A program made the position numbers and the translations under genes. Shown piece after piece: positions 7,031-60,400 of a stretch of 64,000 nucleotides of DNA (position 1 is its first letter; the number at the start of each line of letters is the position of its first letter). The notes beneath the pieces are model-generated. The model was not told the DNA's origin. It was given only the letters and a program-made list of their open reading frames with translations, and ran no database searches. The stretch covers positions 60,963,785-61,027,784 of the forward strand of contig OZ035997.1 of the NCBI GenBank assembly GCA_964035015.1, given 5' to 3'. This stretch comes from Corallium rubrum (taxonomy: Eukaryota; Cnidaria; Anthozoa; Scleralcyonacea; Coralliidae).

Positions 7031-7210
7031 GCCATTAGTCAAGAGTGATATTTAATTATCCTTCCCCATTTGTTATAATGAGAAAGATTTATTAAACATT
7101 AAACATTAAACATAGTGAAGACTTTGATCTATATCTGTAAACACTTCAAATATAATATTCTTACGTAGGTGCAACTTATTTAAGAAACAAAATGTGTAAT
7201 ATCGAAACAT

Positions 7211-14320: not shown

Positions 14321-16630
14321 ATGGTATTTTGCTGCCGTTGGAACATGAAGGTTTTTAAAAACACTGCTCTGACAAACTGCGTTACATTGTGCCAACTAGT
14401 CTTAATACTTAGTTTCTCATGTGGTGAAACCCGAACTTCAAGGCGTCTGGTGGACAACATCGAAAGAAACAGATATAGCCCAACTGTTGAGGGTTTTTTG
14501 TATTCTTTTAAGCGAAGTAAAGCGAGAACTGCAACGGCATGGAATGATTTCTGGTTACGAGCGACAGCTAGTACGAAGAAAAACAATTTAAATACAGATT
14601 ATGAAATTGTTTTGCATTATTCAAAGGGTGAAACAACCAAAGGAAAAGAGATAGACAACAAGCACTATCCATTACTGGAAAATTCGGCGAGTAATCCGAA
14701 TCGTTCACCATTGATAGTAAACGGTCGCAACGAATTCCAAGGAGAGAAACAAATGAACATTAAGCTAAGGCCTGCAAGAAGTGTCCATGATCATGAAGAC
14801 AATAAGACAGACGAACCAGTCCTATCTGTATGTCCTGCAGAAGTGTCGTGCCGTGCTAATTGTTGGAGTCGTTTCAACAAACCCGCATCTAACCGAACAC
14901 TTAAATGTCATTGCGATCCTTACTGCAACTTCTTTAACGATTGTTGTGCCGACAATGAACGATATTGTGGGAAGGGACAGTCGGTTTCTGATCCGATAGG
15001 TCAAAAACTGTTTTCTTGCGCTTATCTATCTAGTATGCAAAATGACGTTTGGTTTGTGAGCAAATGTCCTGATAACTTCCAACCTAAGGAATTATCCTTA
15101 AAGTGTCAAAATATTCCAAGGCGATTGAGTGGACACGACATTCGTAGTCACGTTCCTGTGATTGGCGAAAATAATGTGTTATTCCGAAATGAATATTGCG
15201 CACGCTGTAATCGTGTTAAAGTGCTAGAATACTTTGGTCTTAATATTTCCTGTTCCGTCCTGCCACCTTCATTCATAACTACAATCGAAGGAATGGTAGC
15301 GTTCGCTTTGAAATTTTGTCAACCTAGGAGCATTGCTATTTTTAGAAAGAACCATCAACGTGTGCATAATTGTTTACCGCCTTTTTCAAACAAAAAATTT
15401 AAGGTTGTGCGATCCTGTCCAGGAGAACATATATACCAACACAATTGCACCAATGGTCCCGTCGGGCTCGTCGAAGACCGTGGCGGAGATTCCATAAGAT
15501 ACAGAAACATCTGGTGTAGTTATTGTTGGAATGTATCAAAAGAGGACCTACATTGTAGTTTCTTTAACACGCGTCAGGAGGATGGAGGGCTTGGTGGGAA
15601 TCCACATGTTTTTCCAACTCCACCCCTGTCTCTTGCAATGGATATTTCGAGTGATAACCGGCATAGTTGGCACCTGGAAGTTTCATGTCCCAACTACGAC
15701 CCTTACCTTGAATTATGCCGGGCTCCTCTTGATGTCATACCGCCAGTGGACGATTTTCTCGATAAATATCTAGTCGTAGTGTGGCTCAAGACTGAACACC
15801 CAAATTTCGTTATTACTACTGGAAAGTTCTTGTCTTCTCTGAAAACTGTTTTTAATATCAATAGTTCGCAAGTGTCGAACATAAAAGTTTCCAACTGCTT
15901 TAGCGAATATCTGAGAACCTACTTGTACTCCTTGGTTAGTTATGAGTTGTCTCTGACAAGCGAGGAAACATTGCGTTTAGCAAAAGAAAACGGAACTAAA
16001 ATAATTGACACTCAACAGTCCAACTTATTTTCTCTAAAGAACGGATCTTCGAGTATCCCAGAAACCTCTTGTTTTTCTCTCGAGAATTTAACATAGTTAT
16101 ATACTCGAGTGATATTCCCAGGATATTCACAGTATTTAAAACCTCGTCTCGTCAACTGGCGTGCATTCGAAAACGGACATATCTTCCCGGTGATTATACT
16201 AAACTAGAAAACGACCAATATTTTATCAAATCGACAGGGAAAACATTCGGTAAAAAGGAAGTGTTTTCCGAGTCTAGTAACTCAAAGGCCCGAAAAACTA
16301 TTTTTATTTGCGAAAAGGTTGTTTTTACGAACTGCGAAGGAAAACGAATCGTCCTAAAGCCTGAAGAATACATAAAGTTTAGGAATCTCAGCATATTATA
16401 TAACAGAACAAACGTAAGGTATGATTTCGGGGAGTATGATTTAGAAAGTGGAGCGGTCCTGGTGTGTGGGCACGATTTCCAGCTGCGTGATTCGAAAGTC
16501 CCAGTAGAAATTCAAAACGGTACACAACTGTATCTAACGTATTTAACATGGATTGGGTTTCTTATATCCATGATCTCTTTATTTCTTGTCATTCAAACCT
16601 ACGCTATTTTCTCCGAACTTCGTCGTCTTC
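14321..16630 (+). pseudogene. SMB-domain GPCR copy 2, 5' part (broken)
   Basis: Encodes signal peptide, SMB domain and ectodomain almost identical to copy 3. A 4-bp deletion at 16060/16061 (CCCAGAAACC against CCCACTTAGAAACC in the other copies) shifts the frame and ends translation at 16096. The original frame resumes at 16069 and runs through TM1, where the retrotransposon inserts after 16630 in the TM1-TM2 linker (SELRRL). Two independent lesions make this a clear pseudogene; how recent they are is suggested by near-identity to copy 3 elsewhere. Confidence 0.9.
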
Positions 16631-19600
16631 ATTCGTGCGCGTGCATTAATTGTGACTGAACGTGAAATCAAGATGGCTGGTCATGCTCTCTTTGCTCTCT
16701 GGCTATTTTTCAGTTTGTTTACTTGGTTTCCGTCTGTAAACAACTCAAATAGTAACTCCCTGAGTTGGTGGAACCAACTGAATTTTAACCGTCGCTACTG
16801 TCTAATCCAAGATTATAAAATTCGAAATTTAAATCGCTATGTTCGCTTTCGATCTAGAAGTTATTCTCGTCAGAGATCAAGCTACTATAACAATTCCTGT
16901 GCCACTAGACAGCTATTACTATTGAAACTCTCTGGAGATGTAGAATCTAATCCAGGCCCAATACTGAAGGGGTCATCGAACTCGAATAGAAACTCTGGTA
17001 AATCGCGTTGTGCGAGCTGTCTTAAACTCACAAGAATAAATCAAGATAGCATCCAATGTTCTTCTTGTTTCGAAAAGTTTCATCTAAAATGTACGGGAAT
17101 GACTGCAACAGAACTTCTCTCTTTCCGAGAGCTTTCACAAAGAATATGGTACTGCACTCCTTGTAGCCTGCCGCAGTTTTCTGATAGCTTTTTCAGCGAG
17201 TCCTTCGAACAAAGCTCTACAAGTACTGATCTGACGACTCAACTGAGTTACTCTGCAAGTCCTGTGACTTTACCCACTGACTGGTTTAACATTCATATAA
17301 ACGACTACTTCAAAAATAATGTTAAGATTGCTCATCTTAATATCAACAGCATTTTTAACAAAATAGACGAGGTACTTGATTTATTAAATAAATGTCAGTT
17401 TGACATATTGTTTATCGCCGAAACCAAGATCGATGACTCAGTACCAAATTCATTTCTCGCCCACCCGCAATACCGTGTTCTACGCCAGGATAGGAAGAAG
17501 GGTGCTGGTGGTATATTAGTGTACGTGCGATCCAATATTAGAGTTTATCGGCGAAAAAAGTTGGAACCGGTTGCAATTGAATCGATATGTCTAGACGTTA
17601 AGGGTTGTGGTGACTCCTGGTTCTTAGTGTGCGCGTGCTACCGTTCACCAAGTAAATGCAAAATCACCGAATTTGTTTCGTCGTGTTCTGCTGCAGCCGA
17701 ACAAATGTATGCCAAACGAAAGGAAATAATATTTATTGGAGATTTCAACATGAACATGCTAACGGATACTGATAATAGTCAAGGACCTGATAAGAATTTG
17801 TCTAGTTTTTGCGATCAATTTTGTTTGTCTAATACAATCGAGGAACCAACTCGAGTGACAGCTTCAACAAAAACCTTGCTAGACGTCATTCTCGTTTCAC
17901 ACCCTGATCGATTTGCTTCAAGCGGTACATTACAGCTTGGAATCAGCGATCATGACTTAGTTTTCATTGTCAGGAAGCAAAAACTACCAAAGCCCAAGGC
18001 ACGAATTATCGAATACAGGTCATTTAAGAAACTTGACCAGGCATCTTTTCTATCAGATCTCAGAAACATCCCATGGGATAATGCCTACTCCTTTGAAAAC
18101 ATTGATGACATTTGGCCCCACTGGGCGAACTTGCTGACGGAAGTGGTTAATAAACACGTCCCGATTAAGCGTACGCGTTTACGATTCAATCAACTACCCT
18201 GGATTAACCCAAATATTCAAAAAGAAATGCGTTTGAGGAACCGCCTATATAAAAAATTCCGGTGTACTCGCGATAATGAAAATTGGAACATCTACAAAAT
18301 TCAAAGAAACAAAGTAACAGCTATGAAAAGACAGAATATTAAAAACTATTGTTTTGACGCGGCGACTGACCCATCACCCAGTTCTGTTGGATCATTCTGG
18401 AAAAAAATGAAACCATTACTACCCGGTGGCAAGACAAATACTAGTGCTAACAATATCCACCTGATTGAAGATGGAAAAGTTGTCTCTGATCCTAGTACGG
18501 TTTTTAATGAATACTTTTCGACTCCAGTTATCAGTGAGCCTGTATTGAGTCTGTCTGTGGAGAATTTTGAATGTCACCCAAGTGTTGCATCAATCAGAAG
18601 TAAATGTTTCAATCTGGATATGTCGTTTGAGCCAGTCAGCTCTGACTACGTAGGCAACCTTCTGGCTGGCCTGAATATAAAAAAATCATGTGGCCCCGAT
18701 GGTTTTTCACCAAAGATACTCAAGATTGCTGCACCGGTTATTGTTTTCCCACTGACGAAGTTGTTCAACTACTGTATTGAGTCTTCCCAGTGGCCTAAGC
18801 AGTGGAAATTAAGTAACGTATCACCTGCATACAAGAAAGAAGAAGAGACGATTAAATTGAACTACCGCCCGATTAGTATCCTGTCTACCATACCCAAATT
18901 GTTCGAGAAAGTGAAGTATGATCAACTATATATTAAATTCTCATCTATCTTCTCGGATAATATGTCCGGCTTTCTCCGCGGCCACTCTTGCTGCACTGCA
19001 TTATTAAAATTAACTGATGATTGGCGCTCGGATCCTGATCAGAGAAAGGACATTGGCATCGTGGCTGTTGACTTATCAAAAGCATTTGATTCGATTTGTC
19101 ACAATCTACTCTTGGCAAAACTGAAAGCATATGGCTTACGGGATTCTGCTGTTAGTTTGATTCAGTCGTATCTATCACATAGACATCAACGGGTCAAATG
19201 TAATGGAGTCTACTCAGACTGGCTACCAGTTCGCTGTGGTGTACCTCAAGGTAGTCTGTTAGGTCCATTGCTCTTCAACATATTTATTAACGACGTCAGT
19301 GACTCAGTCAATATCTCTTCATTACGACTTTATGCGGACGACACTACTCAGTATACGGCTAACGCGTGCCCCACATCTCTCCAATTTACAGTTAACCAGG
19401 ACGTAAAAATATTGAGCGACTGGTTTAATGAGAACTTCTTGCAAGTTAACGCTTCCAAGACACAGGCTATGACTTTGGGTAAATCGTTACACAATTATGA
19501 GTTTTCCATTGGCGCAAAGAAGATTGAGATTGAGCCAACACTCAAGATACTTGGTGTAACCCTGGATAAGACGCTATCGTACAAGCCCCACGTCACCAAC

Positions 19601-20420
19601 ATGTTAAAGAAAGCATACTCGAAGATTGCTGCTTTGCGCAGGATCAAGCGTCTTGTTCCGTCTACAACGATGATTACACTCTACAAAAGCTATATACTAC
19701 CACACTTGGAATACTGTTCACCAATCCTTCTAGGAATATCTAAAGCACTAAACACTAAGTTGGAAAACGTTAACTTCTATGCATTAAGAACTCTATTAAA
19801 TTTAGGATCCACTATAAAATACGACACCTGTCTATCTATCGCTAATATGGTCTCGCTAGAGCAGAGAAGATTTGAACAATCACTTATATTATTCTTTAAA
19901 TGTTTCAAGATGCAAGGTCCAAGTTATATTTCTGATCTTTTTACTCCTCGACTTACACCTTATAACCTACGTAGTTCCGGTCTCAATGTTAATCAACCTA
20001 CTTATAATAATCTATATATGCATAACTCGTTTATTTATATTATATCACATATCTGGAACCAACTACCAACTGCTGCTAAATCTTCTACTTCTATGTCTGA
20101 ATTTCGTTCCCAAATTAAGGGAATGAGTTTTTCCGGCTGCCAATGCAACAGGTGCTTATAGACCGTACTGTGTAATTGAATTACTATTATTATTGTAATA
20201 TCTTCATAATTATCTATATTGCTCTGTATAACTTATTTTTAAGCCTAGTTTATAACTGTTATTGTTATACCTATTTATTACTTGTAATTTATTTATTTAC
20301 ATTTATTTTAATGGTCGAGCGTTTGTAACACGAGCCTCTGGCTCGGGAGAATGGGCAACCACTCCCCACGTCCATCGACAATAAATAAATATTGTATTGT
20401 ATTGTATTGTATTGTATTGT
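16631..20420 (+). mobile_element. CR1/L2-like non-LTR retrotransposon, apparently full coding length
   Basis: Interrupts receptor copy 2. The flanks share GTCTTC (16625-16630 and 20419-20424), a 4-6 bp target duplication; part of it may belong to the tail. The element has a 42-bp 5' leader, one long ORF, a 257-bp 3' UTR with a small stem (ACGAGCCTCTGGCTCG) and a terminal (ATTGT)6 array at 20391-20420. Short pentanucleotide tails instead of poly(A) are typical of CR1/L2-type elements. Copy 3, otherwise nearly identical to copy 2, lacks it, so the insertion is younger than that duplication. Confidence 0.9.
16673..20161 (+). CDS. Retrotransposon polyprotein: 2A motif, PHD finger, endonuclease, reverse transcriptase
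   Basis: An uninterrupted 1,162-codon ORF; the first in-element ATG is at 16673 (the frame is open further left only through receptor sequence). Residues 1-20 are hydrophobic, like a signal sequence. Residues 86-96 read LSGDVESNPGP, a canonical 2A motif where the ribosome can skip the Gly95-Pro96 bond, splitting a basic N-terminal peptide from the rest. Residues 113-164 form a C4HC3 PHD finger (C113, C116, C129, C132, H137, C140, C161, C164). An APE-type endonuclease follows (about 217-430: E250 in AETKID, D357 in GDFNMN, SDHD at 425-428). The reverse transcriptase has D800 in VDLSKAFDS, GVPQGS at 856 and YADD at 887-890. All catalytic residues seen are present, so it may be active or very recently so. 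Confidence 0.92.
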   Translation: MAGHALFALWLFFSLFTWFPSVNNSNSNSLSWWNQLNFNRRYCLIQDYKIRNLNRYVRFRSRSYSRQRSSYYNNSCATRQLLLLKLSGDVESNPGPILKGSSNSNRNSGKSRCASCLKLTRINQDSIQCSSCFEKFHLKCTGMTATELLSFRELSQRIWYCTPCSLPQFSDSFFSESFEQSSTSTDLTTQLSYSASPVTLPTDWFNIHINDYFKNNVKIAHLNINSIFNKIDEVLDLLNKCQFDILFIAETKIDDSVPNSFLAHPQYRVLRQDRKKGAGGILVYVRSNIRVYRRKKLEPVAIESICLDVKGCGDSWFLVCACYRSPSKCKITEFVSSCSAAAEQMYAKRKEIIFIGDFNMNMLTDTDNSQGPDKNLSSFCDQFCLSNTIEEPTRVTASTKTLLDVILVSHPDRFASSGTLQLGISDHDLVFIVRKQKLPKPKARIIEYRSFKKLDQASFLSDLRNIPWDNAYSFENIDDIWPHWANLLTEVVNKHVPIKRTRLRFNQLPWINPNIQKEMRLRNRLYKKFRCTRDNENWNIYKIQRNKVTAMKRQNIKNYCFDAATDPSPSSVGSFWKKMKPLLPGGKTNTSANNIHLIEDGKVVSDPSTVFNEYFSTPVISEPVLSLSVENFECHPSVASIRSKCFNLDMSFEPVSSDYVGNLLAGLNIKKSCGPDGFSPKILKIAAPVIVFPLTKLFNYCIESSQWPKQWKLSNVSPAYKKEEETIKLNYRPISILSTIPKLFEKVKYDQLYIKFSSIFSDNMSGFLRGHSCCTALLKLTDDWRSDPDQRKDIGIVAVDLSKAFDSICHNLLLAKLKAYGLRDSAVSLIQSYLSHRHQRVKCNGVYSDWLPVRCGVPQGSLLGPLLFNIFINDVSDSVNISSLRLYADDTTQYTANACPTSLQFTVNQDVKILSDWFNENFLQVNASKTQAMTLGKSLHNYEFSIGAKKIEIEPTLKILGVTLDKTLSYKPHVTNMLKKAYSKIAALRRIKRLVPSTTMITLYKSYILPHLEYCSPILLGISKALNTKLENVNFYALRTLLNLGSTIKYDTCLSIANMVSLEQRRFEQSLILFFKCFKMQGPSYISDLFTPRLTPYNLRSSGLNVNQPTYNNLYMHNSFIYIISHIWNQLPTAAKSSTSMSEFRSQIKGMSFSGCQCNRCL

Positions 20421-21218
20421 CTTCCTGGGAAAAACATTTTAAGTTTGGCCATGTCGTTGTTCCTAGTGCAACTTCTGTGGCTGACTGCGGTTGGTCGACC
20501 TCGTCCGGCATTCGTCTGTCATTTGACCGCAGTTGTAGAGCACTACCTATTCCTCGTGTCATTCGTCGCCATGGCAACGATTGCGTATCACACATATTCT
20601 GTGTTTGCGAGCAAGGTGGTATCGAGAGACGAATCTCTGGCCAGCGAGAACAAGAAGTTCCTCAGGTTCTCGACCATTGTTTGGGGTTTTCCCGCCATTT
20701 TTGTCATCGCGTGCGCGGTGATAGATGACCAGGATGTTTACGATATTTACGTGAACGATAGATTGCAGATATGTTGGTTCAAAACTAAAGAAGCCCAGGA
20801 GTATATGTTTGTCCTTCCAGTCGGTTTAATCTTGGCTTTCAACGTGATATTCTTCATTCGTACCGTGGTTGTCATTCAGCGCCAACGTTCTGAAAGCTCT
20901 GTATTAACTGCGTCGTCTCATCAACGACCAAGAACCATGTTCTGGATATACCTCAAGCTCTCCACCTTGATGGGCTTCAGTTGGCTCTTCGGCTTGATGG
21001 ATATGCTGATAGACTCGACCCAAGTCTTCTCGTATCTGGTCGTGATTTTTGCATCATTTCAAGGTCTTTACATGGCCGTCGCTTTTCTTTGGAACAAACG
21101 CACTTTAAAGATGTATAAGAAATTAGCTACAAGCAAGAGAGGTGGCCGACCGAAAGCTAGTCGTGATTGCAGAAGTAATTTAAGCAAGTATAGTCGCACA
21201 AGGGAAACTAGATTGTAG
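20421..21218 (+). pseudogene. SMB-domain GPCR copy 2, 3' part
   Basis: Resumes in the TM1-TM2 linker directly after the retrotransposon tail and encodes TM2 to the C-terminus, ending in the same stop as other copies. The frame runs back into the ATTGT tail (an ATG at 20397), but the product would lack the ectodomain and TM1 and is unlikely to be a receptor. Confidence 0.9.
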
Positions 21219-21362
21219 TTGTGAGAGTATCATCATCTGTCTTGGTTATCTTTTGTAATCTGCACGAGTTCTAATATTTAAGAAACTGAAATCTCGTATA
21301 AAAAAGTAAAGTGCTGCCGCGTAGTGAGTATTTTGGATAGAGCAAGGTGAAAACGTGGTCAG

Positions 21363-21479
21363 CTGTTGAGATTTTTAGTTACGAAATACCGACGTTTCAA
21401 GCGGAGCCTTTTTTAAAGTGAAATGTGATGAAGGGCTCCGCTCGAAACGTCAATGTTTCATTACTAAAAATCTCGGCAG
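21363..21479. repeat. 117-bp hairpin (spacer 2)
   Basis: Same arms as in spacer 1; the loop-proximal bases read GACGTTTCAAGCGGAGCC on the left arm, one mismatch to the right arm. Confidence 0.7.
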
Positions 21480-21730
21480 TTTACCACCTTATCACTTTCC
21501 TGAATCCCCGTATTTATAACTTGAGAAAATTGAACAAATGCTCTAAGTCAAGACTTTCTGCTGCATGTGATTTAAGTACGATAGTAACAACTGTAGTATT
21601 CACTGAAATTGAAATAACCAAATACTCTAGCGTATAAGTATATACACCAATTCACATGCGTCTAAAGAAAATTGGATTGGCTCCAATTAATCGGACTGTG
21701 TGAATAGGCCTTTAAACCTATCTGAATTAA

Positions 21731-25219: not shown

Positions 25220-28200
25220 ATGGTATTTTGCTGCCGTTGGAACATGAAGGTTTTTAAAAACACTGCTCTGACAAACTGCGTTACATTGTGCCAACTAGTC
25301 TTAATACTTAGTTTCTCATGTGGTGAAACCCGAACTTCAAGGCGTCTGGTGGACAACATCGAAAGAAACAGATATAGCCCAACTGTTGAGGGTTTTTTGT
25401 ATTCTTTTAAGCGAAGTAAAGCGAGAACTGCAACGGCATGGAATGATTTCTGGTTACGAGCGACAGCTAGTACGAAGAAAAACAATTTAAATACAGATTA
25501 TGAAATTGTTTTGCATTATTCAAAGGGTGAAACAACCAAAGGAAAAGAGATAGACAACAAGCACTATCCATTACTGGAAAATTCGGCGAGTAATCCGAAT
25601 CGTTCACCATTGATAGTAAACGGTCGCAACGAATTCCAAGGAGAGAAACAAATGAACATTAAGCTAAGGCCTGCAAGAAGTGTCCATGATCATGAAGACA
25701 ATAAGACAGACGAACCAGTCCTATCTGTATGTCCTGCAGAAGTGTCGTGCCGTGCTAATTGTTGGAGTCGTTTCAACAAACCCGCATCTAACCGAACACT
25801 TAAATGTCATTGCGATCCTTACTGCAACTTCTTTAACGATTGTTGTGCCGACAATGAACGATATTGTGGGAAGGGACAGTCGGTTTCTGATCCGATAGGT
25901 CAAAAACTGTTTTCTTGCGCTTATCCATCTAGTATGCAAAATGACGTTTGGTTTGTGAGCAAATGTCCTGATAACTTCCAACCTAAGGAATTATCCTTAA
26001 AGTGTCAAAATATTCCAAGGCGATTGAGTGGACACGACATTCGTAGTCACGTTCCTGTGATTGGCGAAAATAATGTGTTATTCCGAAATGAATATTGCGC
26101 ACGCTGTAATCGTGTTAAAGTGCTAGAATACTTTGGTCTTAATATTTCCTGTTCCGTCCTGCCACCTTCATTCATAACTACAATCGAAGGAATGGTAGCG
26201 TTCGCTTTGAAATTTTGTCAACCTAGGAGCATTGCTATTTTTAGAAAGAACCATCAACGTGTGCATAATTGTTCATCACCTTTTTCAAACAAAAAATTTA
26301 AGGTTGTACGATCCTGTCCAGGAGAACATATATACCAACACAATTGCACCAATGGTCCCGTCGGGCTCGTCGAAGACCGTGGCGGAGATTCCATAAGATA
26401 CAGAAACATCTGGTGTAGTTATTGTTGGAATGTATCAAAAGAGGACCTACATTGTAGTTTCACACGTCAGGAGGATGGTGGAGGGCTTGGTGGGAATCCA
26501 TATGGTTTTGGAACTCCACCCCTGTCTCTTGCAATGGATATTTCGAGTGATAACCGGCATAGTTCGCACCTCGAAGTTTCATGTCCCAACTACGACCCTT
26601 ACCTTGAATTATGCCGGGCTCCTCTTGATGTCATACCGCCAGTGGACGATTTTCTCGATAAATATCTGGTGGTAGTGTGGCTCAAGACTGAACACCCAAA
26701 TTTCTTTATAACTACTGGAAAGTTCTTGTCTTCTCTGAAAACTGTTTTTAATTTCAATAGTTCGCAAGTGTCGAACATTAAAGTTTCCAACTACTTTAGC
26801 GAATATCTGTACTTGTACTCCTTGGTTAGTTATGAGTTGTCTCTGACAAGCGAGGAAACATTGCGTTTAGCAGAAGAAAACGGGACTAAAATAATTGACA
26901 CTCAACAGTCCAACTTATTTTCTCTAAAGAACGGATCTTCGAGTATCCCACTTAGAAACCTCTTGTTTTTCTCTCGAGAATTTGACATAGTTATATACTC
27001 GAGTGATATTCCCAGGATATTCCCAGTATTTAAAACCTCGTCTCGTCAACTGGCGTGCATTCGAAAACGGACATATCTTCCCGGTGATTATACTAAACTA
27101 GAAAACGACCAATATTTTATCAAATCGACAGGGAAAACATTCGGTAAAAAGGAAGTGTTTTCCGAGTCTAGTAACTCAAAGGCCCGAAAAACTATTTTTA
27201 TTTGCGAAAAGGTTGTTTTTACGAACTGCGAAGGAAAACGAATCGTCCTAAAGCCTGAAGAATACATAAAGTTTAGGAATCTCAGCATATTATATAACAG
27301 AACAAACGTAAGGTATGATTTCGGGGAGTATGATTTAGAAAGTGGAGCGGTCGTGGTGTGTGGGCACGATTTCCAGCTGCGTGATTCGAAAGTCCCAGTA
27401 GAAATTCAAAACGGTACACAACTGTATCCAACGTATTTAACATGGATTGGGTTTCTTATATCCATGATCTCTTTATTTCTTGTCATTCAAACCTACGCTA
27501 TTTTCTCCGAACTTCGTCGTCTTCCTGGGAAAAACATTTTAAGTTTGGCCATGTCGTTGTTCCTAGTGCAACTTCTGTGGCTGACTGCGGTTGGTCGACC
27601 TCGTCCGGCATTCGTCTGTCATTTGACCGCAGTTGTAGAGCACTACCTATTCCTCGTGTCATTCGTCGCCATGGCAACGATTGCGTATCACACATATTCT
27701 GTGTTTGCGAGCAAGGTGGTATCGAGAGACGAATCTCTGGCCAGCGAGAACAAGAAGTTCCTCAGGTTCTCGACCATTGTTTGGGGTTTTCCCGCCATTT
27801 TTGTCATCGCGTGCGCGGTGATAGATGACCAGGATGTTTACGATATTTACGTGAACGATAGATTGCAGATATGTTGGTTCAAAACTAAAGAAGCCCAGGA
27901 GTATATGTTTGTCCTTCCAGTCGGTTTAATCTTGGCTTTCAACGTGATATTCTTCATTCGTACCGTGGTTGTCATTCAGCGCCAACGTTCTGAAAGCTCT
28001 GTATTAACTGCGTCGTCTCATCAACGACCAAGAACCATGTTCTGGATATACCTCAAGCTCTTCACCTTGATGGGCTTCAGTTGGCTCTTCGGCTTGATGG
28101 ATATGCTGATAGACTCGACCCAAGTCTTCTCGTATCTGGTCGTGATTTTTGCATCATTTCAAGGTCTTTACATGGCCGTCGCTTTTCTTTGGAACAAACG

Positions 28201-38537: not shown

Positions 38538-39415
38538 TAACACAGTTTTCTTTTTTTGACTATCCTAACGACCGAAAAAGATAATAGGTATAGGTTTTAC
38601 ACATATGGTCTCATATCTCTTAATGACGAAGTTGCACCATGCAAATATTGATCAGCTGATTATAGCCACGTAAGAATCCTTAAAGAAAGCTTACAAACTT
38701 GAAGGCCTTCCTAATATCACTTTAATAAATGCGATGTCTAAGATCTATTTTAAGGGCCATTCAATTACGTGGGGCGAGTTAGCCTGACTCATCTGATTGG
38801 GATCTTACTCTGGGTTTTAAGCTCGTCATAAACTAAATTTCCAAAAAGAATATTTCTTCTAATATTTACTGTATAACAAACCCCCATTCAACTGACACTA
38901 AAAGCTCATTTGTTATTATTCAAAAACTTTATTAAACAGGCACTAGGTCATATAGAAAGCATCGGTTAAAAAGCGATCCATTCATAAAATTTTGCAGGAA
39001 GCGCTATTAAGTAAATTATCTATTGTCTCCGATCAAAGCCTTCTCTATTTTTGTGTACAGCTATTCTATTTCTACGCTCGAAGCGTCAGTATTTCGTTAT
39101 CAAAACTATTCTTCGCAGTTCACCACCTTTTCACTTTTGTTTATTCACAATGAAGTATAGTTTCGTTATATTCTTCAGTATACCCACATGAAAATATGCC
39201 TGTATTATACAGCTTCTTTTAACAGTTGATTTTGGACGGAGAAGTCCAAGTTCAAATTTTATTCACATTAGAAGGAGAAACTATTTACAAGAGAGGATTC
39301 ATTAGTCATTAGTCAAGAGTGATATTGAAGACTTTTATGCATATCTTTAAACACTTCAAATATTCTTACCTAGGTGCAACTTATTTAAGAAACACGATGT
39401 GTAATATCGAAACAT

Positions 39416-42400
39416 ATGGTATTTTGCTGCCGTTGGAACATGAAGGTTTTTAACAACACTGCTCTGACAAACTGCGTTACATTGTTCCAACTAGTCTTAG
39501 TACTTAGTTTCTCATGTGGTGAAACCCGAACTTCAAGGCGTCTGGTGGACAACATCGAAAGAAACAGATATAGTCCAACTGTTGAGGGTTTTTTGTATTC
39601 TTTTAAGCGAAGTAAAGCGAGAACTGCAACGGCATGGAATGATTTCTGGTTACGAGGCACAGCTAGTACGAAGAAAAACAATTTAAATACAGATTATGAA
39701 ATTGTTTTGCATTATTCAAAGGGTGAAACAACCAAAGGAAAAGAGATACACAACAAGCACTATCCATTACTGGAAAATTCGGCGAGTAATCCGAATCGTT
39801 CACCATTGATAGTAAACAGTCGCAACGAATTCCAAGGAGAGAAGCAAATGAACATTAAGCTAAGGCCTGCAAGAAGTGTCCATGATCATGAAGACAATAA
39901 GACAGACGAACCAGTCCTATCTGTATGTCCTGCAGAAGTGTCGTGCCATGCTAATTGTTGGAGTCGTTTCAACAAACCCGCATCTAACCGAACACTTAAA
40001 TGTCATTGCGATCCTTATTGCAACTTCTTTAACGATTGTTGTGCCGACAATGAACGATATTGTGGGAAGGGACAGTCGGTTTCTGATCCGATAGGTCAAA
40101 AACTGTTTTCTTGCGCTTATCTATCTAGTATGCAAAATGACGTTTGGTTTGTGAGCAAATGTCCTGATAACTTCGAACCTAAGGAATTATCCTTAAAGTG
40201 TCAAAATATTCCAAGGCGATTGAGTGGACACGACATTCGTAGTCACGTTCCTGTGATTGGCGAAAATAATGTGTTATTCCGAAATGAATATTGCGCACGC
40301 TGTAATCGTGTTAAAGTGCTAGAATACTTTGGTCTTAATATTTCCTGTTTCGTCCTGCCACCTTCATTCATAACTACAATAGAAGGAATGGTAGCGTTCG
40401 CTTTGAAGTTTTGTGAACCTAGGAGCATTGCTATTTTTAGAAAGAACCATCAACGTGTCCATAATTGCTCATCACCTTTTTCAAACAAAAAATTTAAGGT
40501 TGTACGATCCTGTCCAGGAGAACATATATACCAACACAATTGCACCAATGGTCCCGTCGGGCTCGTCGAAGACCGTGGCGGAGATTCCATAAGATACAGA
40601 AACATCTGGTGTAGTTATTGTTGGAATGTATCAAAAGAGGACCTACATTGTAGTTTCTTTAACACGCGTCATGGTGGAGGGCTTGGTGGGCCTGGTGGAA
40701 ATCCATATGTTTTTGCAACTCCACCCCTGTCTCTTGCAATGGATCTTTCGAGTGATAAGCGGCATAGTTGGCACCTCGAAGTTTCATGTCCCGACTACGA
40801 CCCTTACCTTGAATTATGCCGGGCTCCTCTTGATGTCATACCGCCAGTGGACGATTTTCTCGATAAATATCTAGTCGTAGTGTGGCTCAAGACTGAACAC
40901 CCAAATTTCGTTATTACTACTGGAAAGTTCTTGTCTTCTCTGAAAACTGTTTTTAATATCAATAGTTCGCAAGTGTCGAACATAAAAGTTTCCAACTACT
41001 TTAAAGTGTCAAAATGTTCCAGAGCGATTGAGCGGACACGACATTCGTAGTAACATTCCTGTGATCGGCGAGAATAATGTGTTATTCCGAAATGAATATT
41101 GCGCGCGCTGTAATCGCGTTAAAGTGCTAGAATACTTTGGTCTTAATATTTCCTGTTCCGTCCTGCCACCTTCATCCATAACTACAATCGAAGGAATGGT
41201 AGCGTTCACTGTGAAATTTTGTGAACCTGGGAGCATTGCTATTTTCAAAAAGAAACATCAACGTGCGCATAATTGTAACACAAAATTCAGGATTGTACGA
41301 TCGTGTCCCGAAAAACATATACACCAACACAATTGCACCAATGGTCCCGTCGGCCTGGTCGAAGATTATCGCCGATATTCCATAATATACAGAAACATCT
41401 GGTGTAGTTATTGTTGGAATGTATCAAAAAAGGAACTACATTGTAGTTTCTTTGACACACCTCCGTGGATGCGTCCCGCTGGTGGTATAAGTATAACTCC
41501 ATCCCTGTCTCTTGCAATGGATGTTTCGAGTGATAGCCGGCATAGTTCGCGCCTCGAAGTTTCATGTCCCAACTACGACCCTTACCTTGAATTATGCCGC
41601 GCTCCCCTTGATGTCATACCCCCCTTGATGTCATACCGCCAGTGGAAGATTTTCTCGATAAATATCTGGTGGTAATCTGGCTCAAGACTGAACACCCAAA
41701 TTTCTCTATAACTACTGCTAACTTCTTGTCTTCTCTGAAAACTGTTTTTAATATCAGTAGTTTGCAAGTTTCGAACATAAGCGTTACCAAATACATGTCG
41801 TACAAGAAATATCCGATAAGCTACTTGTACTCCTTGGTTAGTTTTGAGTTGTCTCTGACAAACGAGGAAACATTGCGTTTAGCAAAAGAAAACGGAACTA
41901 AAATAATTGACACTCAACAGTCCAACTTATTCCCTCTAAAGAATGGATCTTGGAGTTTCCCACTTAGAAACCTCTTGTTTCTCTCTCGAGAATTTGACAT
42001 AGTTATACACTCGAATGATACTCTCGGGAATGCTACATTCACAGTATTTAAAACATCGTTTCGTCAACTGGCGTGCATTCGAAAGCGGACATATCTTCCC
42101 GATGATTACACTAAACTAGAAAACGACCAATATTTTATCAAATCGACAGGGAAAACATTCGGTAAAAAGAAGGTGTTTTCCGAGTCCAGTAATTCAAAGA
42201 CCCGAAAAACTATTTTTATTTGCGAAAAGGTTGTTTTCACGAACTGCGAAGGAGAACGAATCGTCCTAAAGCCAGAGGAATACAAAAAGTTTAAGAATCT
42301 CAGCATATTATATAACAGAACAAACGTAAGGTATGATTTCGGGGAGTATGACTTAGAAAACGGAGCGGTCGTGGTGTGTGGGCACGATTTCCAGCTGCGT

Positions 42401-43336
42401 GATTCGAAAGTCCCAGTAGAAAATCAGAACACTGCACAACTTTATCTAACGTATTTAACATTGAATGGGTTTCTTATATCCATGATCTCTTTATTTCTTG
42501 TCATTCAAACCTACGCTATTTTCTCCGAACTTCGTCGTCTTCCTGGGAAAAACATTTTAAGTTTGGCCGTGTCGCTGTTCCTAGTGCAACTTCTGTGGGT
42601 GACTGCGGTTGGTCGACCTCGTCCGGCACTCGTTTGTCATGTCACCGCAGTTGTCGAGCACTACCTATTCCTCGTGTCATTCGTCGCCATGGCAACGATT
42701 GCGTACCACACATATTCTGTGTTCGCGAGCAAGGTAGTATCGAGAGACGAATCTCTGGCGAGCGAGAACAAGAAGTTCTTCAGGTTCTCGGCCATTGTTT
42801 GGGGTTTTCCCGCCATTTTTGTCATCGCGTGCGCGGTAATAGATGACCAGGATGTTTACGATATTTACGTGAACGATAGATTGCAGATATGTTGGTTCAA
42901 AACTAAAGAAGCCCAGGAGTATATGTTTGTCCTTCCAGTCGGTTTAATCTTGGCTTTCAACGTGATATTCTTCATTCGTACCGTGGTTGTCATTCAGCGC
43001 CAACGTTCTGAAAGCTCTGTATTAACTGCGTCGTCTTATCAACGACCAAGAACCATGTTCTGGATATACCTCAAGCTCTCCACCTTGATGGGCTTCAGTT
43101 GGCTCTTCGGCTTGATGGATGTGCTGATAGACTCGACCCAAGTCTTCTCGTATCTGGTCGTGATTTTTGCATCATTTCAAGGTCTTTACATGGCCGTCGC
43201 TTTTCTTTGCAACAAACGTATTTTAAAGATGTATAAGAAATTAGCTACAAGGAAGAGAGGTGGCAGACCGAAAGCTAGTCGTGATTGCAGAAGTAATTTA
43301 AGCAAGTATAGTCGCACAAGGGAAACTAGATTGTAG
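39416..43336 (+). pseudogene. SMB-domain GPCR copy 5, chimeric with internal duplication
   Basis: The 5' part (39416 to about 41003) is a copy 2/4-like receptor up to KVSNYF. It then jumps back about 270 codons: at about 41004 the sequence re-enters at the CQNVPERLSGHD region and continues in the copy 1 subtype (EDYRRYS, PPWMRP, TKYMSYKKYP) to the C-terminus. The result repeats about 810 bp of ectodomain and explains the 7.9-kb spacing to copy 6. The junction is out of frame (stop just after it). A 17-bp tandem duplication (CCCCTTGATGTCATACC, about 41603-41636) adds a second frameshift. TM1-TM7 remain open (41642-43336). This is the expected product of misaligned recombination between two subtypes. 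Confidence 0.88.
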
Positions 43337-51214: not shown

Positions 51215-51640
51215 CACTGTTAATTCTTGGGTGCTGAAACAACTCCAAAAGTGGAGTGAAAAAAAAAGGTACAGAACCACTCCACTTTTGGAGTACTTTT
51301 CACTTCACTTTTTGCACTCCACATGTGGAGTGAAATTCACTCCAGGAGTGGAGTGGAAATAACTCCACGAATGGAGTGGAAATAACTCCAATGTTTGGTG
51401 TTGAAATAACTCTCTCATACTGGAGTGGAAATTACTCCAAAAATGGAGTTGAAATAACTCCACAGTTTGGTGTTGAAACAACTCTCTCATGCTGGAGTGA
51501 AATTCACTCCAGAACCAAACATCAATCTCAGCTAGTGTATGTATAACAACAACCCAAGTACAAAATACATCCAAAAAATATTTAATAGCTAAAACATACA
51601 CAAAATATATCATATAGAAATGACTATAATACTATATACA

Positions 51641-55291: not shown

Positions 55292-55954
55292 TAGTAACAA
55301 CGGAAGTATTCACTAAAATTGAAATAACCATGTACTCTAGTATATAAGTGTATCCACTAAATCACATGCGCCTAAAGGAAAGTTGGCTCCAATTATTCGG
55401 ATTGTGTGAATAGGCCTTAAAAGCTATCTGAATTAACCCTCTCAATTCTGCATTCCGTTTTAGTATTTTAGTACAGGTTATTTTGAGGCGACGAGGGATA
55501 TGTGATTTATTCACATGGCGAGGTTGACAGGATTTCATAAGATAAGGAGTGGTGCGGGGGATATTAGACGGGACGATTAGCGGAGAATATTATAGCGAGG
55601 AATGGTAGAGGGGAATATTAGAGGGGAATATTAATCTATTGTTTTGCCCGGGGCTATTGAATATATTCCCCTAAAAGAAGAAAGGAAACCGAGGCATGTG
55701 AAAAATAACTCTGATTAACGCCAGGCGATTTTACTCGTCATTGGGAGGCCGCTCGGGTTGACAGGGTTAAAGACCGATAGGCACTTATCATGGTGCACGG
55801 CGCATTGTTAGATTTGATTGACCCAAGTAGCCCGGATGCGAATGGCATAAAAGTGGTCCTCGTTTTACTATAACGTCGTCGCATGCGTTGGTCGGATTGT
55901 ATTGGAAATACAAGGCGAGGATAGCGAGAGTATTTGCTTAGCCAATAACCTCAT
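55292..55954. repeat. Resumed receptor 3' flank of unit 6, with a modified TTAA MITE
   Basis: Continues at TAGTAACAAC exactly where the flank broke at 51214. The TTAA MITE here (55437-55766, TTAA on both sides) is 330 bp rather than 94 because of an insertion containing repeated GGGGAATATTA. Homology to other spacers stops near 55954 after CCAATAACCTCAT, at the reverse transcriptase remnant. Confidence 0.7.
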
Positions 55955-56661
55955 AACATATTCTGTGCGGAGTTTGGGTAGTTGAATCAAACATGAAGCA
56001 TTCCTTGTACCATAATTATGCGCATTTATCTGAAAATAATTTTCAAGATTCTTACATACGTTTCCGACCAAGGACGTTTTAACTAATACGCAAGCTCTTC
56101 TCTTAATTACATTTTCAATTCGAAATATCTTTAAATCACAATGGTTGGAAGAACTGATGATGGACGTTGCTCTATCATGAAAACGGATTGACTTTTGACT
56201 TTGTGTTACTGTGAGATTAAGATTTGTTAACCCACCATATGTAAGGATTGGCACAATCATAGCTTGGTAAATGGTTTTTGCTGAAGGTACATTGAGGTAT
56301 TGCCTGATTTTGGCCAGTAATCGAAGACGTCCCATAGCTCGACCAAAATTCCGATTCAGATTTAGAGATGTGTCAATTTCAATTCCAAGGACCTGTAAGT
56401 TGATTTAGTTTCGATCTTCTCATAACCATACATAATATTCAACGATTTTGCTGCTTAGAATTTTGCTGCTCATCATTGGCTAGCTATCAGAAAATTCAGT
56501 TTTGTCATATACAATTTGGGATCGATTGAACAAATAATCTTTAAACCATTCCAACTCTAAATCTGCAATTCCATATTTTGATAATTTCGTTATTAACTTG
56601 CTGTGTCCTAATTTATCAAACGCTTTACTTAGGCCGATAAATTCGATAAATACTGCACCCA

Positions 56662-58809
56662 CACTGTTAATTCCAAGGAGTTAATTTGACTCCAAAAGTG
56701 GAGTTAAAAAAAACGTAACAGAATAACTCCTTTTCTGGAGTTATTTTTTACTCCAAAATTTAACTCCTTTTTCGGAGTAAGTGTAACTCCAAAACTGGAG
56801 TAACAATAACTCCGAGAGGCGTAGATATTACTCCAGAATTGGAGTAAAAAGTACTCCAGAATTGGATCAAAAAGAGCAATAATTTGACTCAGAAGTGGTC
56901 CAGGTGTACAAATAAACACACCAGATAACTCCTTTTGTGGAGTTATATTTATTTACACTGGAAGACAAATTTCACAAATGAATACAAACACAAATTGGTT
57001 GAAAACGTTTTATTCGATAGATTATATGGCTTGCACTTGTCTTATATATAAAGTTTGTTATATATATACTCAGCCTATGTATATATAAAATATTAATCAT
57101 ATGCAGTTAATATATGCATTTGTAAGAAAAGTTCTCTTCAGTGCTCGTCACCACTCACCGTAGGACTCTTGTAAGTTCTCCAAATTATCGAGATCGTGGT
57201 TCCCTACCATGTATTTATCCAGCACATATTTCTGGAGTTGTCGTACACGTACTCGAAGCATATGTTCCTTGTTGCGAATATTTATATAATAACAATAATC
57301 AACAATTGACAGGAATCTTCGAAGAAAAGCATTTATCGTTCAATTATTTAGTTTATTGTTGATACTCCCTCAATCCTTTGAAGTGACAGACTCCAATAGT
57401 CAAGTTATGCAAATTTAATAACTTCAGTGCGAATAATCCCGTACCATATATTAATTAATCTGGCAAGTCGTCGTCTCGTTCGCTAGTCTTTGCTGGAAAG
57501 ACTCGATGCTGTCGTCGTTGTGTCCGAACTCGACGAGTTATTCAACAACTATAGCCTTTCTCTGCGGAGTTTTAATTGTTGGGGGAATTATTAGTGTAAA
57601 AGGCTAAAAGCTTCTGTCGATAACACTGCCGTTGTCTCGTTCGCTAGTCTTCGATGAAAAAGATTAACTCCAATCAATGCGGTCCTTGTTGTGTATCCGA
57701 GATATTCAGCGATAGAACAAATGATTCCTTTGCGGAGTTTGTCGATGAAACTTTAAAAATGTTAGTTATTAAAATAAAAAATCTCATCTTGTCGACAACG
57801 GTGAAGCTAATTGGTATATTATCATGAGCTGTGTCATGAGCGAGATCAACCGTGACTGCCGAAGAAGATCAAAATTTGCGATTTCTGCTTGGTTGAGCCC
57901 CGAGTGGACCTATGCGAAGACAGTACTGTTTGTTAATTGTTTTTCTTCGCATGCAGAGGTCCGCACGGGGCTTAACCAATCAGGAATTGCAAATGTTGAA
58001 CCTCTTCAGCAAACAAGCTATACGGTTACTCCCGTTCATAACCAAGCGTTGTCGATAAGAAAATATTTTATCCCAATTACAGTTTTAAAGATTCAACGAC
58101 AAACTTAATAAACGGCTGTAGAGTTTTAAAACAACGAAATACCGATGTATAGAAGAAAACCCTTCAACGAAGTAAACCGTCACATTATTGAACGACGTTT
58201 TAAATGATTGAAATAAAATATTGCCGTTTCCAGCGGCGCCATTCAATTCTTCACAAAAATCAACAAAGTAGCAAGGTGAGACAACTATCTCCGGCCCGCG
58301 ACTATTGTTACTCCAAGTTAAGTCAAACAAGGATGACACTTTTATACAATGCCGTCAATACACCATACATTCTTCTCAACTCTTTTTAAAATTTGAAATT
58401 TTATCCAACGCACCGCGTAGGTAGCACTCAACTTCTGAACTCAAAGCTAAACCAACATGCTGCGAATTATCTTCTCATTTGGAGTTAAATTCAGCTCCAT
58501 CATTCAAGATCAAATTTAACTCCATTATTAAGAGTAATTTTTAACTCCATCAGACCAAGGAGTTAAATTCTCAAAAACAACTCCTGGAGTAGAATAATGT
58601 ACTAGTCTTACTCTAATGTTGGAGTTATTTCAACTCCCTTGATGGAGTTAAAATAACTTGACATGGAGTAAAATGAAAGGTAACTCCTTAGTTGGAGTTA
58701 AATTAACTCCGTTATTGGAGTCAAAAAAACTCTGAAATTTTTACTCTACCAAAAGGAGTTATTTTTACTCCCTTGATGGAGTTAAAATAACCCCTTGAAA
58801 TTAACAGTG
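56662..58809. mobile_element. 2.1-kb CACTG-ended transposon inside the reverse transcriptase
   Basis: Ends CACTGTTAATTCCAAGGAG and CCTTGAAATTAACAGTG are related to those of the 4.1-kb element, with the same ACTCC / GGAGT-rich subterminal zones (about 56662-56950 and 58480-58809). CA flanks both sides (56660-56661, 58810-58811). Removing the element and one CA joins the flanking codons in frame as NLV / GAVFIEF, so a 2-bp duplication is well supported. The interior (56950-58480) has no recognised gene. Confidence 0.75.
57850..58012. repeat. Foldback within the 2.1-kb transposon
   Basis: Arms CAAAATTTGCGATTTCTGCT ... GAGCCCCGAGTGGACC and GGTCCGCACGGGGCTTAACC ... GCAAATGTTGA are inverted with a few mismatches. 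Confidence 0.55.
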
Positions 58810-59231
58810 CACCAAATTTTTCTTATCCACTTCCCTCTGAATATTGTCCATAAATAATACAACAGGCAAGTTCAGTAGATCGATTTTTTCTAAAGCCAAA
58901 TTAGTTGTCGTGAAGTAGATTATTGGTTTCAAGATAATTTGACAGTTGTCTCTGGGTATGATGGATATAGGTCGATAGTTTTGTACATCTCCCCGAGGAA
59001 CTTTTTTATGTATAGGAATCACTTTTGTTGATTTGCCTTCGATTGGATATACGCCAGTTTCAAAAGACATGTTTATCAGATAAGTCAATCTTTTAGAACG
59101 AAGGGGGAATATTATCCAAACCAGAGGATTTTTTATTCTTTCATAAGGTCAGTTCATTTTCCACAACCCCTGCTGTAACATTGTTAAATTTGAAAGTATT
59201 TTGTGTATTTTCAATCTCTATAGCGTGCAGT

Positions 59232-59369: not shown

Positions 59370-60400
59370 TAAGAAGCCAAAAGATAAATGCAACTAACGT
59401 AAATTCTCTTCTTTGATTCTTACTTAAATCTCATCTAGTTAAGGATTAAAGCTAGTTTTAAATCCGCAAACAGGACATCACGAGAAATATTTAGATCAAT
59501 TATATGTAACGTGTATATCTGAAAATACGTTTAAGAGCAAACTGATCAAGTTTAATAGTTCAAATAATAAATAAGCCAAACAATTTGGCAATCTCCTTCT
59601 CTTTACGTTACCTCCCATCTTGTTTGCTTGGCAACCGTTTTTGAAGTACCTCCAGTTACGCATATGGTCCATTCACGACTGTTTTCGAAGATTCTTTCCA
59701 AGATTAAGTATTAGCCTAGGTTGAACGATATAAAGGACTGGGGGGCTAATCATCCTTACTTGCAGCCGCGTAAGAATCCTTAAAGGGAATTTACAAACTT
59801 GAAGGCCTTGGTAATATCAGTTTAATAAATGTGATGTCTAAGATCTCCTTTAAGGGCCACTCAATACTCATCTGATTGGGATCTTACTGTGGGTTTTAAG
59901 CTCGTCATAAACTAAATTTCCAAAAAGAATATTTCTTCTAATATTTACTGTATAACGAACCCCCATTCAACTGACACTAAAAGCTCATTTGGCCATTGTT
60001 ATTATTCAGAAACTTTATTAAACAGGCATCAAAACCTACCCTATTTTTGTGTACAGCTATTCTATTTCTACGCTCGAAGCGTCAGTATTTCGTTATCAAA
60101 ACTATTCTTCGCAGTTCACCACCTTTTCACTTTTGTTTATTCACAATGAAGTATAGTTTCGTTATATTCTTCAGTATACACACATGAAAATACGCCTGTA
60201 TTATACAGCTTCTTTTAACAGTTGATTTTGGACGGAGAAGTTCAAATTCAAGTTTCAAGTTTTATTCACATTAGAAAGGGAGAAATTATTTACAAGAGAG
60301 GATTCATTAGTCAGTCAAGAGTAATATTGAAGACTTTTATGCATATCTGTAAACACTTCAAATATCCTTACCTTGGTGCAACTTATTTAAGAAACACGAT
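59370..60400. repeat. 5' flank of array unit 7
   Basis: Aligns with the other receptor 5' flanks but lacks the SINE: the sequence runs from CATCCTTACTTGCAG straight to CCGCGTAAGAATCC. Because about 15 bp of SINE-side sequence remains (GGGGGCTAATCATCCTTAC), this is a deletion of an existing SINE rather than an empty site. No gene seen. Confidence 0.65.

Follow-up and report, generated by a model that had tools for sequence, protein, structure and literature searches.

A 64,000-nucleotide stretch of the Corallium rubrum genome, referred to here as the window, contains a young and probably complete LINE with a single open reading frame (ORF), an APE-type endonuclease and a probable affiliation to the L2/CR1 lineage. 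The ORF appears to give rise to two proteins by way of a 2A (StopGo) site, which would free the enzyme from an N-terminal leader; we assign a probability of roughly 85% to this reading. The sequence gives good support to a predicted 2A/StopGo site that is preceded by a hydrophobic and basic leader and followed by a protein with PHD finger, endonuclease and reverse transcriptase (PHD-EN-RT).

The open reading frame and its predicted StopGo tract

The ORF (16673..20161, + strand) starts with an AUG in strong context (AAGATGG) and encodes 1162 amino acids. Its 1162 codons include no stop, as the sequence-only reading had stated in calling the ORF intact, and the chance of a frame of this length staying open is about 1e-32 by base composition. 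LSGDVESNPGP occupies residues 86-96, and within it the octamer DVESNPGP (residues 89-96, nt 16937-16960) fits D[VI]ExNPGP and also, in frame, the core octamer (D/G/C/N)(V/I)ExNPGP. Both the position of the motif and its match to the D-V-E-x-N-P-G-P consensus had been given correctly by the sequence-only reading, whose span of 16673-16960 equals leader plus octamer exactly. In the six frames of the 64-kb window the only NPGP is the one at residues 93-96 of the ORF, and residue composition leads one to expect about 3.4e-5 D[VI]ExNPGP sites across all six of these frames and 1.2e-6 within the ORF. The tract as a whole, LLLLKLSGDVESNPGP, comprises residues 81-96 (16913..16960, + strand), with the predicted break between nucleotides 16957 and 16958 (Gly95/Pro96).

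The quality of a 2A tract depends on its upstream context in addition to the octamer. Here the octamer is preceded by the six residues LLKLSG and has D at p12 and S at p15. The available text of a 2026 study on nearly 10,000 viral StopGo sites describes L-rich upstream motifs (numbers 2 and 6) that have (A/S/C)G at their end, ahead of a D at p12, and are associated with S at p15; motif 6 was active when tested in vitro (PMC12846837). Compared with this description by eye, without MEME/FIMO or the authors' matrices, LLKLSG together with D at p12 and S at p15 fits the L-rich StopGo class. At the codon level, no match to the pattern GDVExNPGP (x as WSN codons) was found in the viral sequence collection viral_contigs.

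PHD finger, endonuclease and reverse transcriptase

The PHD finger, the APE-type endonuclease and the reverse transcriptase follow one another in one protein, and all three lie downstream of the 2A site. The PHD finger (residues 112-165; 17006..17167, + strand) is identified by Pfam and is Pygopus-like by its matches to solved sequences. With the first 180 residues as query, Pfam reports a PHD at residues 113-164 with 24.4 bits against a cut-off of 24; with the whole protein as query the score is 21.3 bits and falls under the cut-off, which counts against the favored reading. Residues 97-180 match seven solved sequences at E up to 0.01, every one of them a Pygopus PHD finger with an E value between 1.2e-5 and 4.5e-5, and CTGMT is common to the PHD of the ORF and Pygopus in the alignments shown. 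The earlier assignment of a PHD finger close to the motif is thus borne out by Pfam and by seven of seven Pygopus matches, albeit with a marginal Pfam score. The endonuclease (residues 222-430; 17336..17962, + strand; Pfam Exo_endo_phos at 222-427) contains LNINSI, AETK, GDFN and SDHD, and the reverse transcriptase (residues 728-964; 18854..19564, + strand; Pfam RVT_1) has YADD at residue 887. We take these five motifs to be catalytic landmarks of the endonuclease and the reverse transcriptase.

No in-frame methionine occurs between Met1 and Met143, and the latter is located inside the PHD finger. Leaky scanning can therefore not yield a leaderless protein with a complete PHD; such a PHD-EN-RT protein would arise only by StopGo or by proteolysis, which gives the 2A a clear job, namely freeing the enzyme from residues 1-95. 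According to the mechanism we propose, the nascent tract LLLLKLSGDVESNPG would act inside the exit tunnel of the ribosome, no bond would form between Gly95 and Pro96, and the leader of 95 residues would be released. The ribosome would then resume at Pro96 to synthesize a PHD-EN-RT protein of 1067 residues (about 121 kDa), and the enzyme, freed of the hydrophobic leader, could reach the nucleus for target-primed reverse transcription.

Searches with the protein gave no pattern match in viral_contigs. For residues 216-1162, ten stretches of prokaryotic sequence (genome_contigs) matched the pattern, none of which encodes a relative. Seven phage records were found, all below 60% identity and with matches within residues 669-1043, as well as 995 plasmid records, all below 60% identity and none covering 80% of the query; among the 20 plasmid records listed, 18 bear the name group II intron reverse transcriptase/maturase, one is called RNA-directed DNA polymerase and one is unnamed. 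None of these matches bears on the 2A.

Boundaries of the element and its insertion into a receptor gene array

The non-LTR element is about 3.79 kb long (16631..20418, + strand, ends accurate to one base on each side). It is bordered by a target-site duplication, GTCTTC, at 16625..16630 and 20419..20424 (+ strand), the length of which we give as 4-6 bp because the outer bases could be the element's own. The ORF is followed by a 3' UTR (20162..20389, + strand) and a (TATTG)6 tail (20390..20419, + strand), whose last base is possibly part of the target duplication. Neither long direct repeats at the two ends of the element nor a second copy within the 64-kb window were found. The fold of the 3' UTR, with stem-loops predicted at 20332-20366, has a z of -1.96, with 9 of 200 shuffles folding equally well, and the fold of the 5' region is unremarkable (z -1.14; 30 of 200 shuffles). 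As the former is marginal and the latter unremarkable, no RNA structure is claimed; Rfam at gathering thresholds gave no match within 16000-21500.

Genes that encode a somatomedin B and a secretin-type seven-helix domain are arrayed in tandem along the window, as indicated by its repeats and by Pfam scans of two units, and one of these units is interrupted by the LINE. Seven receptor units lie between 7184 and 63505, with starts at 7184, 14294, 25193, 32290, 39389, about 46.2-47.6 kb and 60353; leaving the LINE out of account, the first five are spaced by about 7.1 kb. In four units a single frame of 1041-1050 codons is open throughout, and the remaining ones are interrupted, frameshifted or partly duplicated (39389-43336). 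The site is empty in all six other units, where the joined flanks with one GTCTTC match at 95.8-100% over 167 bp; the match to the empty site at 27434-27600 is 100% over 167 bp, and the unit at 60353 has one base changed within the site. Compared with the next unit, the receptor half on the 3' side of the insert shows a single difference in 798 bases, and the half located 5' is 98.2% identical over 2344 aligned positions. These near-identical halves and the open ORF indicate that the insertion is recent. Similarly, the target duplication, the six empty sites and the open frame of 1162 codons point to a recent, coding-competent copy. A further likeness concerns ZfL2-1, the zebrafish L2 LINE, for which target duplications of about 5 bp are described in the accessible parts of PMC3905857, PMC4245944 and PMC4176376 (5 bp in PMC4245944). 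The length of the duplication thus agrees with an L2-type element but would be no proof of it. The element is young, of the non-LTR type and equipped with one ORF, and probably belongs to the L2/CR1 lineage.

Some features of the array are recorded separately. At 16009-16100, upstream of the insertion, the interrupted receptor unit shifts frame, unlike the four intact units, and its disruption may be unrelated to the LINE. The apparent remains of another LINE ORF2 are located at 55868-59148 on the - strand, where tblastn aligns two short stretches with the RT region at 38 and 40% identity and Pfam reports RVT_1 in just one of the three pieces scanned, at an E value of 0.019, below the cut-off. 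An array of 23/72-bp repeats with the core TGGAGTGGAAATAACTCC occupies 51326-51511, and arrays of smaller extent that contain ACTCC and/or GGAG words are located at 56829-56874, 58487-58552 and 58681-58732.

The leader peptide

The leader predicted to be released by StopGo consists of 95 residues (16673..16957, + strand). By Kyte-Doolittle hydropathy, residues 5-19 (16685..16729, + strand) form a hydrophobic segment that is signal- or anchor-like. They represent the top 15-residue window of the whole protein (1.97), residues 6-16 are its second-best 11-residue window, and the 19-residue mean of the segment is 1.56. Tiles of the same protein were equally hydrophobic in 0 of 223 cases at 15 residues and in 3 of 223 at 11 residues, and random N-termini of the same composition in 280 and 298 of 20,000, respectively. 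Near the N-terminus, the maximal 11-residue mean reaches 2.54-2.68 in four of the seven receptor units compared to 2.41 in the LINE leader, a yardstick for which 45 residues were scanned in the receptor units and 25 in the leader. The hydrophobic N-terminus is real and only modestly unusual, and the leader may be called signal-like by its hydropathy only.

An arginine-rich basic segment covers residues 48-69 (16814..16879, + strand). The net charge is +7 over residues 50-69; of the 14 twenty-residue windows that reach this value, ten are located elsewhere in the protein. The +10 of residues 36-80 is reached by 30 of 1117 windows of 45 residues, the leader's own counted. Thus, of the two properties that the sequence-only reading had assigned to the leader, the signal-like N-terminus stands as far as the best 15-residue window is concerned and is weakened by the 280 random N-termini that equal it, and the very basic segment holds with its +7 but is matched by similar stretches elsewhere in the protein. 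N-x-S sequons are present at residues 23 and 73. A PHROGs search of the leader gave no match.

It might be argued that the leader is a cytosolic tract, disposable or RNA-binding, the hydrophobic segment of which never meets SRP, so that skipping merely separates the enzyme from it. To this reading, which the modest hydrophobicity and the lack of K or R among the first ten residues would suit, we give somewhat less than an even chance, since the segment is the most hydrophobic 15-residue window, sits at the very N-terminus and precedes a polar stretch that contains a sequon.

The anatomy of the leader alone also prompts the suggestion, tentative and on the whole unlikely, that it is a minimal stand-in for an ORF1 protein, in which a membrane segment and an arginine-rich RNA-binding tract would gather the RNA of the element at the ER. 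In the same suggestion, and with just as little confidence, at least one leader would be produced per reverse transcriptase molecule, and the PHD-EN-RT protein would move to the nucleus, guided by its Pygopus-like histone reader. The ORF1 protein of ZfL2-1 has an arginine-rich motif and an esterase that binds membranes (PMC3905857, in the part available), and these two features, as discussed for that protein, resemble the arginine-rich tract and the putative membrane segment of the leader. In contrast, the ORF1 protein of ZfL2-1 is separate from the ORF2 protein and has a coiled coil in addition to the esterase. No mention of a PHD or a 2A was found in the accessible descriptions of ZfL2-1 (PMC3905857, PMC4245944, PMC4176376).

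The 5' UTR of this copy (16631..16672, + strand) comprises 42 nt that are open in frame with the ORF (14 codons), and thus a longer master copy may begin its protein upstream of this ATG. The copy might accordingly be 5' truncated, in which case the master element would have a longer ORF or an ORF1 further upstream, and the hydrophobic segment would be internal. Truncation would be in keeping with the behavior of ZfL2-1, which inserts at full length in just 2 of 33 cases in a DT40 cell assay according to the accessible part of PMC4245944. However, the junction lies just 42 nt ahead of an ATG in strong context that opens a signal-like segment, and single-ORF PHD elements are, in the available text of PMC4120745, already a described class; we therefore regard a truncated copy as quite unlikely.

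Discussion

The two-protein reading of the ORF places the element among APE-type LINEs with a 2A. Odon 2013 is said to have found 2A sites with in-frame D[VI]ExNPGP in non-LTR elements of the APE type, and reportedly linked them to single-ORF elements of the clades Rex1, Crack, L2, L2A, CR1 and Ingi. They reportedly share with the present element an in-frame D[VI]ExNPGP site in addition to the APE endonuclease and the reverse transcriptase. Literature searches turned up no paper describing a signal-like leader in front of a LINE 2A, a result whose scope does not take in Odon 2013 or Luke 2014 ('Lost in translation').

Single-ORF LINEs with one N-terminal PHD have been described as type IIIA, comprising L2 subgroup 4 and CR1 subgroup 6, and the accessible text suggests that such elements may be full length, having either reverted to a single ORF or become parasites of other elements (PMC4120745). 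Like this copy, they have a single ORF with one PHD before the endonuclease. The best structural match of the L2 subgroup 4 PHD is Pygopus 2vpb_A, and Pygopus chains match the element described here as well; in the table of the same study 2vpb_A is also top for four other subgroups, and the entry for CR1 subgroup 6 is 1wep_A. We found no mention of a 2A in the available description of type IIIA in PMC4120745. A 2A directly before the PHD would turn a type IIIA ORF into a two-protein unit.

How efficiently the site would be skipped may depend on the leader. Certain sequences that precede a 2A are inhibitory to skipping if an N-terminal signal draws them into the translocon; ribosome and translocon together span 65-70 residues, and the inhibitory sequences are located 28-48 residues from the peptidyl-transferase centre (PMC2978324, available part). 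In the ORF described here this zone would correspond to residues 47-67, the arginine-rich segment, and skipping could thus be less efficient in cells than it is in lysate. Provided that the leader is a true signal, entry into the ER channel would precede skipping, and the efficiencies in cells and in lysate may differ.

The sequence-only reading had further invoked dual targeting as a precedent. This precedent exists for sea-urchin NLR proteins, in which the dual-targeting 2A is a 26-residue N-terminal sequence, but it had been conflated with the 2As of retrotransposons, which, like those of viruses, the accessible text of PMC4981915 terms internal, and the geometry differs. Common to both are a 2A in the N-terminal region and signal-like hydrophobicity. 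The sea-urchin NLRs, however, are cellular immune genes in which the 2A is the signal, whereas here the octamer at residues 89-96 is separated from the segment at residues 5-19 by about 75 residues, and the 2A sequence of this ORF is not itself an N-terminal signal. In the NLR proteins, skipping would release a 2A signal that is still inside the ribosome. Located some 75 residues ahead of the skip site, the hydrophobic segment of the LINE should be out of the ribosome well before skipping occurs, and the NLR mechanism would therefore not transfer unchanged.

Regulated dual targeting of the LINE protein, in which skipping is incomplete and part of the PHD-EN-RT protein becomes secretory via the leader while the rest is cytosolic or nuclear, is improbable in our view. 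It would make use of the hydrophobic N-terminus and of the two sequons; the principle has been shown for SpNLR2A6 with in vitro skipping of about 80% (PMC4981915, available part), and canonical octapeptides, too, sometimes skip incompletely, as stated in the accessible text of PMC12846837. Beyond the differing position of the signal, a secreted reverse transcriptase would be without obvious use to a nuclear retrotransposon. Finally, that the motif is a product of chance or a dead relic is hardly credible, even though the evidence for our explanation consists of the sequence of one copy, given the 1.2e-6 sites expected in the ORF, the fitting upstream class, the open ORF and the fresh insertion.

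As 2A sites in APE-type LINEs are already known, the putative two-protein element of C. rubrum seems to be a further good example of a described phenomenon, not a novel mechanism. Should the leader indeed substitute for an ORF1 protein, this would explain how a LINE with one ORF manages without a separate ORF1. The spacing can be put to the test, as the arginine-rich residues 48-69 would be in the inhibitory zone of PMC2978324, as described in its available part, at the moment of skipping. Since its ORF is intact and its junctions are clean when compared with the six empty sites, the copy offers a convenient natural construct with which to ask why 2A sites have been adopted by LINEs, be it to part the enzyme from an ORF1-like leader or to govern the destination of the enzyme.
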